10,879 nucleotides of DNA. Origin: Bacillota bacterium (GTDB taxonomy: Bacteria > Bacillota > Limnochordia > Limnochordales > ZCTH02-B6). Below the pieces are notes generated by a model. It saw only the letters and a program-made list of their open reading frames with translations. It did no database searches and had not been told where the DNA came from. The stretch's first letter is position 1. Every line of letters begins with the position of its first letter. Where the stretch lies: NCBI GenBank assembly GCA_003387805.1, contig QGSR01000038.1, positions 1 through 10,879 on the forward strand. The letters are read 5' to 3'. A program made the position numbers and the translations under genes. Shown here one piece after another: positions 6,221 through 9,863 of the stretch.

Positions 6221-6510
6221 CGGTCGATAAGTGGAAAATCGATTCCAAGCCGTTGATGGACCGTGGGCGGGGGGCCGATGGGTCGAAAATCGGTTCCGAT
6301 TCGGTGCTGGACCCGCCGCTGCGATGCGGATAAGTTGAAAGTCGATTCCAATTTGGCGGCGAACCGCTGTTTGGGCGCGGATAAGTCGAAAACCGAGACC
6401 AATTTCCTTGAAAACGAGCGATTTTCGGCTGGCGGCTGGATTTTAGTCGCGGTTTTCGTCTAAAGTTCGGCGGAAGTCGAGCAATCGGCCGGATTAGTCG
6501 CAGAATCCGC
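6221..6510. repeat. Repeat array 1: tandem units of about 51 bases
   Basis: A 23-base core recurs at 6226, 6277, 6329 and 6380 (steps 51, 52, 51), for example GATAAGTGGAAAATCGATTC at 6226 and GATAAGTTGAAAGTCGATTC at 6329. The copy at 6277 reads GATGGGT and the one at 6380 has a diverged 3' half. More degenerate starts follow at 6439 (GATTTTAGTCGC) and 6492 (GATTAGTCGC). The bases between cores are less conserved and GC-rich. An imperfect inverted repeat (TTTAG...CTAAA, 6442-6464) sits in the fifth unit. The array exactly fills the gap between two genes. In opposite orientation its core matches the core of array 2. No gene is supported inside it. Confidence 0.8.
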
Positions 6511-6529: not shown

Positions 6530-6545
6530 GGGAGGTGGAGTCTTG
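6530..6545 (+). promoter_or_regulatory. Ribosome binding site fixing a TTG start
   Basis: GGGAGG at 6530-6535 is followed 7 bases later by TTG at 6543-6545. This supports the TTG start that keeps the whole Gly-X-Y segment in the protein. Confidence 0.7.
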
Positions 6546-7319
6546 GCTCCGGGAAAGGGCGACCATCCCCACGCCGGCCAGGCCGGCCTTGCCGGCGACA
6601 CCGGTCGCGACGGCCAGGTCGGCCCCGTCGCCCAGGCAGGGCTCCCCGGCCACGAGCGCCAACCCGGCGCCATCGGCGCGGCCGGTCACACGGGCCAACC
6701 CGGCCCCGAAGGCCACATTGCCGCCGCCGAGTCCATCGGGCCCGCCGGCCATGCGGCTGTTTTTCGGCCGGCGCCGGTTCCCGGGACGGAAGCGACCCTC
6801 GGCGTGCTGCTGGCGCTGACCCTCATGGCGGGAGTCGGCCTTCCTTTGATTTTGTTCGTGGCCACCGGCGCCTTCAGCTGGTGGCTGCTGGCTGTCGTGC
6901 TGGTCATCTCGGTGGCGCCCTTCGCCTTGGTCCGGGCCGCTGTGCGCAGCCTCCGCTATGAAGTTGGTGCCGCCGGCGTGAGCGTGCACCACCTTCGGAG
7001 GAAATCATATCCGTGGGACGAGATCGAGGCCGTTCGCGTACTGCGCCGGCCTTTGCGCGGATTTGTCCGCATCGGGATGGGCTCGACCACCGCCGGTTTC
7101 CACGTCGGCCCGTTCCGGGAGTCCCGCCTCGGACGGATTCAGGCGTATGTCACAGCCGTGACTCCTCCGCTGGTCGTCCTGGAGACGCGGTCTGATCCCG
7201 TTTTGCTGTCGCCGGACGACGTGGACGGTTTCGTGGCCGCCGTGCGGAGGTTCAGCGGCCGGCCCGGCATCGTGGTCGACCGGCCTGAACAGGAGGAGCG
7301 TGGAGCCGATGGGCCTTGA
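6543..7319 (+). CDS. Membrane protein with collagen-like N-terminus and bacterial PH-like domain
   Basis: A 258-residue protein in three parts. Residues 12-71 are twenty consecutive triplets of Gly-X-Y type, with glycine in 16 and A, R, A, E in the other four, including GLP, GQP and GPE triplets as in bacterial collagen-like proteins. Two hydrophobic segments follow (about 85-107 and 112-132). From about 137 to 236 lies a domain like bacterial PH domains of the bPH type (YEVGAAGVSVHH, YPWDEIEAVRVL, IGMGSTTAGFHVGPF, VVLETRSDPVLLSPDDVDGFVAAV), a fold usually found on the cytoplasmic side of membrane proteins. Two helices would place both ends on the same side, so the collagen-like part may be cytoplasmic, which would be unusual. 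There is no signal peptide before it. Start TTG 6543 is supported by GGGAGG 7 bases upstream. The function is unknown. Confidence 0.85.
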   Translation: MAPGKGDHPHAGQAGLAGDTGRDGQVGPVAQAGLPGHERQPGAIGAAGHTGQPGPEGHIAAAESIGPAGHAAVFRPAPVPGTEATLGVLLALTLMAGVGLPLILFVATGAFSWWLLAVVLVISVAPFALVRAAVRSLRYEVGAAGVSVHHLRRKSYPWDEIEAVRVLRRPLRGFVRIGMGSTTAGFHVGPFRESRLGRIQAYVTAVTPPLVVLETRSDPVLLSPDDVDGFVAAVRRFSGRPGIVVDRPEQEERGADGP

Positions 7320-7570: not shown

Positions 7571-7608
7571 CGCCGGTGCTTGCGACGGCGGGATGATTGT
7601 GGGATGCC

Positions 7609-8616
7609 ATGCGAGCAGAACGCGAATTGACCCGGACGACAAATTTATGTGATGAGCGCGGCCGGCTGAACCGCTCGGCCGTCGGCTGGTCGCGCCGGCC
7701 GCTCCACGTCTGCAACCTAAAGGGCCGCTGGCTGCGCAAGAAGCGATGGAACTACTGGGCCGTCACCACCGAGACGCACTTGTTTTCCGCCACCGTTTCC
7801 CATCTTGACTACGCCGCGGTCGTTTTCGTCTACTTTCTCGACTTCGAAACCAAATGGTTTCACGAGCAAACGGTGCTGGCGCCGCTGGGAGCGGGCGTGC
7901 AAATGCCCGAGACGGTCACGGGCGACATCGACTTTCGCTCCTCCGGCCTGGCCGTGCGGATGAACGACGACGGGCGGCAGATTCAGCTGGCCGTGGACAG
8001 TCGCAACTTCGGCGGGCGGCCGCTGCGTGCCGAATTTGCCGTGCGCCGCCCGGATGGGCACGCGTCCATCAACGTCGTCATTCCTTGGTCCGACGACACG
8101 TTTCAGTTTACGTCCAAGCAGCCGGCGCTGCCCGCGACGGGCGTCGTGGAGCTGGGCGCCGAGCGCATCGGCTTTGACGGCTTTGCGTGTCTGGACTACG
8201 GCCGCGGGATTTGGCCCTACAGCAGCACGTGGAACTGGGCCTCGGGCTCGGGCGTGCAAGACGGCCGCACCGTGGGCCTGAACCTGGGCGGCCGCTGGAC
8301 CGACGGCACCGACATGACCGAGAACGGCCTGGTCGTCGACGGCGTCGCGACGAAAATCAGCGACGATCTCGTTTTCGAATACGACAGCAAAGATTTCATG
8401 AAGCCGTGGCGCATCCGCACGGCCGTCACCGACGCAGTAGACCTCGAGTTTGTCCCTTTCTTCGAACGAGTCGCCAAGACCAACGCCCTGATCATCCGCT
8501 CCGAAGTGCACCAGATGATTGGCCGGTTCCGCGGCCGCGTCGTGACGGCCGAAGGGGAAACGCTGAAGATCGACGGTCTGGTCGGCTGGGCGGAGGAGCA
8601 CCACGCCCGCTGGTGA
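7609..8616 (+). CDS. DUF2804 domain-containing protein
   Basis: Protein of 335 residues covering the full DUF2804 family, whose biochemical role is not established. Characteristic stretches are ERELTRTTNLCDERGRLN at the N-terminus, AVGWSRRPLHVCNLKGRW, the aromatic RKKRWNYWAVTTETHLFSATVSHLDYA, and later IGFDGFACLDYGRGIWPYSSTWNWASG and VGLNLGGRWTDGTDMTENG. The rich pattern of Trp, Tyr and short beta strands fits a beta-barrel like that of lipocalin or hydroxyneurosporene-synthase-like proteins, which is inference. There is no signal peptide or membrane helix. ATG 7609 gives the usual family N-terminus; an in-frame TTG at 7597 adds four residues and neither has a strong ribosome site. The region after the stop is repeat array 2. 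Confidence 0.9.
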   Translation: MRAERELTRTTNLCDERGRLNRSAVGWSRRPLHVCNLKGRWLRKKRWNYWAVTTETHLFSATVSHLDYAAVVFVYFLDFETKWFHEQTVLAPLGAGVQMPETVTGDIDFRSSGLAVRMNDDGRQIQLAVDSRNFGGRPLRAEFAVRRPDGHASINVVIPWSDDTFQFTSKQPALPATGVVELGAERIGFDGFACLDYGRGIWPYSSTWNWASGSGVQDGRTVGLNLGGRWTDGTDMTENGLVVDGVATKISDDLVFEYDSKDFMKPWRIRTAVTDAVDLEFVPFFERVAKTNALIIRSEVHQMIGRFRGRVVTAEGETLKIDGLVGWAEEHHARW

Positions 8617-8649
8617 CGAGGCGGTTCGCAGGCGGGCGGCCTCTGGTCG

Positions 8650-9590
8650 AGCCTTGGTGTCGTTTCCGGGACTCCGACGACGCTCGTCCACGGCCATTTT
8701 TCCACCGATGGCGCTCAATTCCGACTTTGACTCCACCCACGGCGTCGATTTCCGATTTCGTCGCCGCCGACGGTGAGGTACCGCCGACCGTTCAGCCCGG
8801 TCCGGCGGCGATGGGGGCCGGGCCATCAAAATCATTGCGCACAGCTTTAATCGTTTATTGCCGAAGGCGATGTTGCCACCCATGGAGCTGAATTTCGATG
8901 TTCGCTCCACCTATGGTGTCGATTTCCGGTTTTGTCACCGTCTATGGCGATGTGCCGCCGGGCGTCCGCCCCTAGCGAGCGGAAATGAGTCCCGAGGCCA
9001 CTACAATGCGGCCCGGACCAGCCAAGCCATCGCGGGTAGCCGTCGTTGGTCATCGCCCAGGGTCATATCGCCACTCATGGAGCCGGATTTGGATTTTGAC
9101 ACCACCCATGGCGCCGATTTGCAATTTCGTCGCCGCCAATGGTGACGTACCGCCGGGCATCCGGCCTGGGCGAGCGGAAACACGGGTTTGTGGGGTGAAT
9201 CCATCTCGCACAGCTATGAACGGCAATCGCCCAGGGCCATATCGCCACCTATGGAGCCAGGTTTCGATTTTGGCTCCATCGGTGGCGTCGATCTTCGATT
9301 TAGTCGTCACTCGTGGCACCGTACCGGCGGGTATCTCGCCCAGGCGAGCGGAAATGCGGACCGGCGCCGCGAAAACGCGGAGTTGATCAGCGAAACCATC
9401 GCACGCAGCCATAAGCAGAAATCGCCCAGAGCTATATCGCCACTCATGGAGCTGGATTTCGATTTTGGCTCCGCCCATGGCGACGGTTTTCGGTTTTGTC
9501 TCCATCTACGGTGATGTGCCGCCGGGCATCAACCCCGAGCGCGCGGAAATGCCCCCGGGCGGCCCGACTGTCCGCCGGATCATCTCCCGG
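8650..9590. repeat. Repeat array 2: hierarchical array of 31-base subunits
   Basis: Five blocks each contain subunits exactly 31 bases apart, phased by ATGG or a one-base variant. Positions are 8708/8739/8770, 8882/8913/8944, 9077/9108/9139, 9251/9282/9313 and 9446/9477/9508. Each block also has a different subunit 31 bases earlier (8677, 8851, 9046, 9220, 9415), typically with ATCGCCCAGGGCCATATCGC. First subunits read like ATGGAGCTGGATTTCGATTT and second ones like ATGGTGTCGATTTCCGGTTT. Third subunits contain a CCGCCGGGCATCCG-like stretch, and in blocks 2-5 GCGGAAA follows. Blocks start 174, 195, 174 and 195 bases apart. A degenerate copy lies at 8654. No frame is consistently open in step with the repeat and 31 is not a multiple of 3, so it is treated as non-coding. 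Confidence 0.88.
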
Positions 9591-9627
9591 CACTAGCGTT
9601 CCGAACCTGGTCTTGCCCGGTGACCCC

Positions 9628-9863
9628 TCACCACTCGGTGAAATCCGCCTCCGCATCAGAGTCTGCAACGGATGCGAGACGGCAGCGCCGAAGAACGGGC
9701 ATGCGAAGAATACATCCCACGTGGAAAGCAGGGTCACGTCCTGTGGCTTGTCCCGCAGCGTCACAAGCGCCGCCGCAGCCTCGTCTTCAAGGCGCAGCGC
9801 CTCGCCTTCGTGCATGGGCTCGATGACGCCGGGCCCCTCGGCGCGGACGACCAGTGCGACCAT
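9628..9863 (-). pseudogene. Short hypothetical gene adjoining the repeat array, possibly frameshifted
   Basis: From ATG 9863 on the minus strand, about 75 codons have clearly GC-ending third positions and a sensible composition (HEGEALRLEDEAAAALVTLR, then STWDVFFACPFFGAAVSHP). I do not recognise the family. After about residue 75 the codon bias is lost and the same frame runs on to 9444 through the end of the repeat array. A different frame over the same end reads a plausible acidic C-terminus (DSDAEADFTEW) and stops at 9628, so a frameshift in a gene of about 78 codons is possible. An in-frame TGA lies directly before the ATG. The only Shine-Dalgarno-like GAGG is about 15 bases upstream, which is poor. 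It is either a small real gene whose end was captured by the repeats or a remnant. Confidence 0.45.

Follow-up and report, generated by a model that had tools for sequence, protein, structure and literature searches.

The DNA analysed here (10,879 nucleotides, hereafter the window, forming the whole of contig C337) carries an array of short dyads that belongs to a family dispersed through its genome. The window array comprises five 95-nt blocks, each with three 16-bp dyads (A boxes) at an exact spacing of 31 bases, and four linkers with a second type of dyad (B box). The same three-box block recurs, according to DNA and profile searches of the source genome, on ten further contigs (C295, C326, C94, C77, C86, C58, C327, C260, C56 and C300), and hence is not a product of chance. 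Based on the sequence, we hypothesize that these dispersed arrays are sets of dimer-binding dyads phased on one face of the DNA with a structural role, a reading to which we give about an even chance and in which the binder is a postulated protein.

The features of the window discussed below, all on the + strand, are:

7597..8616, + strand: flanking gene for a DUF2804 protein (PF10974, E 2.5e-113); its stop lies 76 bases ahead of block 1
8693..9525, + strand: complete array, with three A boxes in each of five 95-nt blocks and a B box in each of four linkers
8693..8787, + strand: block 1, with A boxes (16-nt dyads) at 8699-8714, 8730-8745 and 8761-8776
8831..8851, + strand: B box (linker dyad), centre at about 8841
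8867..8961, + strand: block 2, with A boxes at 8873-8888, 8904-8919 and 8935-8950
9026..9046, + strand: B box, centre at about 9036, the weakest of the window's four (14.4 bits)
9062..9156, + strand: block 3, with A boxes at 9068-9083, 9099-9114 and 9130-9145
9200..9220, + strand: B box, centre at about 9210
9236..9330, + strand: block 4, with A boxes at 9242-9257, 9273-9288 and 9304-9319
9395..9415, + strand: B box, centre at about 9405
9431..9525, + strand: block 5, with A boxes at 9437-9452, 9468-9483 and 9499-9514

Five direct-repeat copies are found at 8684, 8858, 9053, 9227 and 9422 (steps of 174, 195, 174 and 195 bases), each corresponding to one 95-nt block with three subunits. These copies and the exact register of the fifteen boxes bear out the initial annotation, which had described fifteen subunits at 31-base spacing in five blocks. 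Lag identity between positions 8641 and 9590 amounts to 0.63 at 369, 0.48 at 195, 0.45 at 174 and 0.36 at 31, so that equivalent subunits are closer between blocks than neighbours are inside a block. The accompanying proposal, that a composite unit was duplicated after its subunits had diverged, finds support genome-wide, beyond the window alone. Other details fared differently. A period of 195 bases, given as that of the block, does occur, but it alternates with 174 in the window and is replaced by 153 in most other arrays. The recommended tandem-repeat analysis yields identity at lags 31, 174, 195 and 369, whereas Tandem Repeats Finder, run on the window, does not report the five-block array. 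A fourth subunit, placed 31 bases upstream of each block, is in the wrong register: dyad agreement there is 0.33, versus 0.51, 0.58 and 0.61 at the box centres, values which are among the top four of 138 centres in the five window blocks. The element recurring as a fourth part across arrays is the B dyad. On the far side of the array, an ORF without a Pfam match extends from about 9980.

The genome searched comprises 2.37 Mb in 454 contigs and is 91% complete. A profile scan yielded 37 blocks (36 distinct ones) at 11 loci, each on a contig of its own; the arrays on C300 and C58 were first detected through short matches. This set was gathered with an ungapped profile, so that blocks with indels could have escaped it, and one degenerate block on C300 (about 131-216) stands outside the 37. 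Since the loci on C56, C58 and C260 lie at or near contig ends, the numbers of arrays and blocks are lower bounds; the C260 locus is a single block, cut near the contig end. The strand of the C77 and C300 arrays is ambiguous. Neighbouring blocks (26 intervals) are spaced by 153 bases in fifteen cases, 154 in three, 152 in one, 174 in four, 195 in two and 150 in one. In other words, 25 of 26 intervals measure 152-154, 174 or 195 bases, and the single interval of 150 is out of phase.

Judged from ORFs and codon composition, the loci are intergenic. Pfam-named genes, considered for the array contigs other than C56, encode the DUF2804 protein (C337), an iron-dependent repressor (C295), a SorC/CggR-like regulator (C326), YetF (C94), a PPIC isomerase (C77), SecA (C58), CtaA (C327), a patatin (C300) and, barely above the Pfam cut-off, a DUF3887 protein (C86); the ORF scanned on C260 has no Pfam match. 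Some of these genes are several hundred bases or more away from the array, and they display no constant side or orientation. Operators of a regulon were rejected as an explanation, given that the Pfam-named flanking genes share no theme and no A dyad is found outside the arrays at one mismatch or fewer.

A 16-bp dyad marks the middle of each 31-nt subunit; its family consensus is YCKCCACCYATGGMGA. Complementary agreement, computed for 77 centres over the 36 distinct blocks, is highest at box 1 (0.65), box 3 (0.59) and box 2 (0.56), with the next centre at 0.45. Mirror symmetry of conservation, at 0.81, 0.62 and 0.34 for boxes 1 to 3, is weaker evidence for dyads, because it reaches up to 0.68 at a centre away from the boxes. 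Variable positions are mostly uncorrelated between the two dyad halves in the 36 distinct blocks, as expected for half-sites that a dimer would read. The A consensus at one mismatch or fewer has 50 matches in the genome, all 50 inside the 11 arrays, and the reversed-pattern control has none; these 50 are drawn from 111 boxes overall. The boxes of the window are degenerate, with one of 15 within one mismatch and the others 2 to 5 mismatches off. In the diverged arrays on C77 and C300 the inner asymmetry of some boxes is flipped, with their centres still in register, and one box of window block 4 is flipped likewise.

The linkers between blocks contain the B dyad, with a consensus near TYATSGCK-NNN-AGCMTTR. 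Its profile, which was trained on the same linkers that it scores, gives 13 to 33 bits in 25 of the 26 internal linkers and 6 bits in the remaining one (C300). In 25 of 26 linkers the B centre and the following first box are 39.5 or 40.5 bp apart; the additional 21 or 42 bases that lengthen units to 174 and 195 nt therefore sit between box 3 and B. In the window, blocks 2-5 each have a B centre some 40 bases ahead of their first box, and by eye none stands before block 1; a B box ahead of the first block was seen by eye in C295, C94, C260 and C300. At one mismatch or fewer the B pattern has 17 genome matches (reversed control: 0), none of them inside the window. Since 11 are in arrays and 6 outside, B is less array-specific than the A box.

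Within the arrays, block lengths are kept while bases change. The 36 distinct 95-nt blocks are related by 559 parsimony substitutions, and their gapped alignment contains no gap. A gapped model search gives match lengths equal to the model span in the best 36 of 63 rows, and in a longer alignment of 29 units every gap falls on the linker side. Mean block identity is 0.75 within arrays and 0.62 between them.

The spacings between dyad centres (31, 31, about 51 and about 40 bp, with an extra step of 21) are near 3, 3, 5, 4 and 2 turns at 10.2 bp. Compared with uniformly drawn spacings they fit whole turns at a pitch of 10.18, with p between 0.002 and 0.004 for pitches of 10.0-10.8; p is 0.015 without the 21-bp step and 0.02 when any period of 8-13 is allowed. 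Because the units share ancestry, 31, 51, 40 and 21 represent few independent distances. The AT spectrum, averaged over the 11 arrays, peaks at 10.22 bp (8.98), followed by 4.77 at 5.28 bp. A peak at about 10.2 bp is the highest in 6 of 11 arrays, and in 9 of 11 its height is reached by at most 5% of 300 background segments of the same length; such spectra are inflated by tandem repetition, and the background segments come from unsorted genome sequence, most of it probably genic. In an averaged 153-column AT profile (19 units, 7 arrays), the fixed 15th harmonic has a permutation p of 0.003-0.005, and a free harmonic one of 0.06-0.16. The dyad centres fall on AT maxima (phase 0.93-0.06 of a turn), a coincidence that partly depends on the dyads themselves. 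We regard the helical phasing of the dyads as supported but not proven, and its statistics as moderate.

From the dyads and their spacing we infer protein binding, cooperativity and a structural role. The composite unit would begin with three A dyads at 31-bp spacing; a B dyad would follow after about 51 bp (or 72 or 93) and the next unit after some 40 bp more, at distances near 3, 3, 5 (7, 9) and 4 turns for a helical pitch of 10.2 bp. A homodimeric protein would recognise the two halves of each A dyad separately, and the B dyad would be read either by this protein or by a second one. Lined up on a single face of AT-phased DNA, the dyads would assemble one multi-protein complex that bends, wraps or bridges the DNA, and the array would serve as a chromosome-structuring anchor, not as the operator of a particular gene. 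The initial annotation had suggested protein-binding sites on one helical face, and this suggestion is strengthened, at the level of candidate sites, by the dyads, their mostly independent half-sites, the near whole-turn spacing and the lack of indels.

A more specific version, which we put forward tentatively and consider rather unlikely, would have the arrays act as chromosomal nucleation sites of a dedicated nucleoprotein particle, in which DNA is wrapped or stacked on a multi-dimer core, both kinds of dyad lying on one face and the AT-rich stretches sharing their pitch. Just as tentatively, such a particle might correspond in bacteria to a positioned, wrapped complex, or act as a centromere-like anchor in dispersed form. 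Contig C17 encodes an orphan ParB-domain ORF (L163, 576-1520; 314 aa), apart from two ParB-family genes on C87, and the orphan protein is a candidate binder.

The main rival to the dyad-array reading is a neutral or selfish satellite family of the VNTR or MIRU type, which would grow through slippage and recombination and give rise to new loci with no bound protein, the palindromes being a by-product of the origin of the unit. We hold this to be possible but doubtful. It would account for the restriction to one lineage: a model of the unit, run against 72 genomes of the class, has matches at E <= 1e-4 in the window's own genome only and none in the 71 others, all of them from other genera. The nearest neighbour of 26 of the 36 blocks comes from the same array, as local expansion would give; many boxes have drifted from the consensus, above all in the window; the flanking genes are unrelated; other tandem arrays are present in a sample of the genome; and predicted ORFs in public data point to arrays of varied make-up. 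On the other hand, a satellite is difficult to reconcile with 559 substitutions in the 95-nt blocks and not one indel, with a dyad symmetry kept across arrays that are 62% identical, and with a B-box register and near whole-turn spacing kept while the linkers diverged.

Weaker matches in relatives were considered as well. Searches over 40 genomes, the one of 72 genomes among them, ran with stricter filters, by which weak matches are lost. With a block model (R1), 12 of 59 other genomes show a single weak match (E 0.002-0.01), and with a unit model (R2) 3 of 4 other genomes of the family do so (E 0.003-0.009). At these 12 + 3 loci no repeat lag rises above background: none of the lags listed exceeds 0.39, compared with 0.45-0.63 for the block lags of the window, and the top lags are mostly multiples of 3, as in genes. 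One stretch (L097) has a lag of 153 at 0.35, which is background height. A 153-nt repeat with an identity of 0.75 in the relative G002 (L144) is an alanine-rich coding repeat with an open frame.

Public protein and viral data were searched as well. An array ORF of C295 has 16 matching proteins at E <= 1 (P0001-P0016), the first being itself or a near-twin, and several of them display a 51-residue period by eye; an array ORF of the window, on the - strand, matches itself and one other protein. The 16 proteins are probably mis-called ORFs across such arrays, and the matches may be read as a sign of sister arrays in other metagenomes and not of proteins. Predicted ORFs from other sources suggest, at the level of the ORFs, arrays of differing make-up. 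Viral contigs contain no match to the spacer-plus-dyad pattern, and against the array ORF they give one pattern stretch and no confirmed relative. In those parts of the literature available to our search, no similar array surfaced.

Other repeats were observed along the way. A second, unrelated repeat in the window (6226-6440) has GATAAGTSGAAAATCGATTCCAA motifs that appear dyad-like by eye and identity peaks at lags 51, 103 and 154, which at a pitch of 10.2 correspond to roughly 5, 10 and 15 turns. Apart from itself, this repeat has no match in its genome at E below 0.4. Nearby, an ORF on the + strand (6543-7319) combines a collagen-like stretch, below the Pfam cut-off, with a subsequent bacterial PH domain. 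A 233-kb sample of the genome (G000) has 13 places above the lag-identity threshold besides the window array, among them five tandem arrays, given here with their best lags: L121 4667-4943 (lag 20), L121 1752-2085 (lag 28), L122 4095-4399 (lag 20), L132 1031-1324 (lag 48) and L135 2096-2502 (lag 102). In the relative G002, two arrays (L111 353-1302 and L114 114-2402) have best lags mostly of about 66-67 and multiples and, judged from the period alone, may be CRISPR arrays.

A transcribed, structured RNA, with repeated hairpins (4-nt loop, stems of about 6 bp) or alternative stems between neighbouring boxes, appears improbable. The folds of the blocks are indeed more stable than those of dinucleotide-shuffled sequences (mean z -1.9 on the + strand and -1.4 on the - strand; z < -2 in 14 and 10 of 36 blocks, respectively), but extra stability is expected of palindromes anyway. 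Covariation within boxes is at chance level, with one of 24 column pairs at p 0.03 (pair 9-20, 24 of 36 versus 18.0), and one of 35 pairs in five alternative stems reaches p 0.02, the first 18 blocks being no better. Hairpins and a three-way junction between adjacent boxes look appealing when one sequence is taken alone, but were rejected on this ground. No Rfam match is obtained at E <= 1 for 8600-9650, and the structured RNA that the initial annotation had named as an alternative is weakened. A scan for sigma-70-like promoters between 8400 and 10100 found none, which says little, because 0.3 are expected there by chance.

The chance is similarly slim for mobile palindromes of the REP or BIME type, spread by a transposase. 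These would fit the dispersal of the palindromes and the occurrence of CGTC near the foot of some boxes (4 of 36 for box 1, 16 of 36 for box 2, 11 of 36 for box 3). However, tags within about 10 nt of the dyad foot are inconsistent (GTAG at 2 and CGTC at 31 of 108 boxes), no box lies outside the arrays at one mismatch or fewer, and the 91%-complete genome has no Y1 transposase (PF01797), a domain detected in 6 of 14 control genomes.

A repetitive protein-coding gene with a period of 153 nt, or 51 codons, is hardly credible and was rejected: the lengths 153, 174, 195, 150 and 21, and 22 of the 26 intervals, are divisible by 3, and + frame 0, with the fewest stops (in 9 of 36 blocks), is open in several arrays and predicted as public ORFs, but differences are spread evenly over codon positions (0.31-0.35 in all six frames), synonymy is near its null (0.283 versus 0.264 in + frame 0), conservation tracks the 31-nt register, and three intervals of 154 and one of 152 break the frame. 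The non-coding nature claimed by the initial annotation is in line with the absence of codon bias and with stop codons, which interrupt between 9 and 21 of the 36 blocks depending on the frame.

Families of intergenic repeats are common in bacteria, and the role of most is obscure. Here, the sequence itself suggests a geometric rule, with dyads set whole turns apart and lengths kept as bases change. If a protein is bound, the arrays would serve to organise or insulate the chromosome through a spacing code that can be read off the sequence, and could themselves be used as bait DNA to find this protein. If nothing binds, a diverged satellite free of indels would itself call for explanation.

Several known systems invite comparison. 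REP, BIME and REPIN elements are likewise short palindromes between genes, often clustered, with the REP/RAYT family features given in PMC3733652; the arrays differ by lacking a GTAG/CGTC tag rule and a RAYT gene, by their fixed 31-nt triplets and by having no copy outside arrays at one mismatch or fewer. CRISPR arrays share a regular repeat pitch. However, the blocks here are 75% identical within and 62% between arrays, the linkers share the B element, and whole composite units recur; identical repeats and unique spacers are absent, in agreement with the earlier exclusion of CRISPR. Pneumococcal BOX elements are modular intergenic repeats composed of distinct boxes (boxA, boxB and boxC). The likeness lies in this modularity; going by the general description of BOX, box sizes and the head-to-tail triplet set the arrays apart. 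MIRU/VNTR loci of Mycobacterium consist of tandemly repeated units, tens of bases long, in numerous intergenic regions. The arrays resemble them in that tandem copies lie between genes at more than one place (11 loci, each on a separate contig), and differ in the hierarchical dyad unit near whole helical turns, with its length kept despite strong divergence.

Centromere-like sites come closer. The canonical chromosomal parS has the consensus TGTTYCACGTGRAACA. A scan of the genome at up to two mismatches (reversed control: 3 matches per strand) found one perfect site on C87, beside two ParB-family genes, one 2-mismatch site on C46 and none in the arrays. ParB_N has three matches in the genome (two on C87, one on C17), none of them on an array contig. 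Because the perfect parS sits on C87 with its two ParB-family genes, away from the arrays, we reject the idea that the arrays are ordinary parS. The F plasmid centromere parS_F (sopC) has its own ParB gene close by. According to PMC6238139, it comprises twelve 43-bp repeats with ten 16-bp inverted motifs. Its tandem inverted-repeat sites, like the A boxes in size, are bound by a dimeric protein. The arrays likewise contain dyad sites in tandem, with three A dyads to a block and one B dyad in the linker. parS_F is one plasmid locus with one type of site, whereas the present arrays occupy at least 11 chromosomal loci and combine two dyad types in a triplet-plus-one order. By analogy, the tandem dyad centromere of the F plasmid may serve as the closest working model for these arrays.
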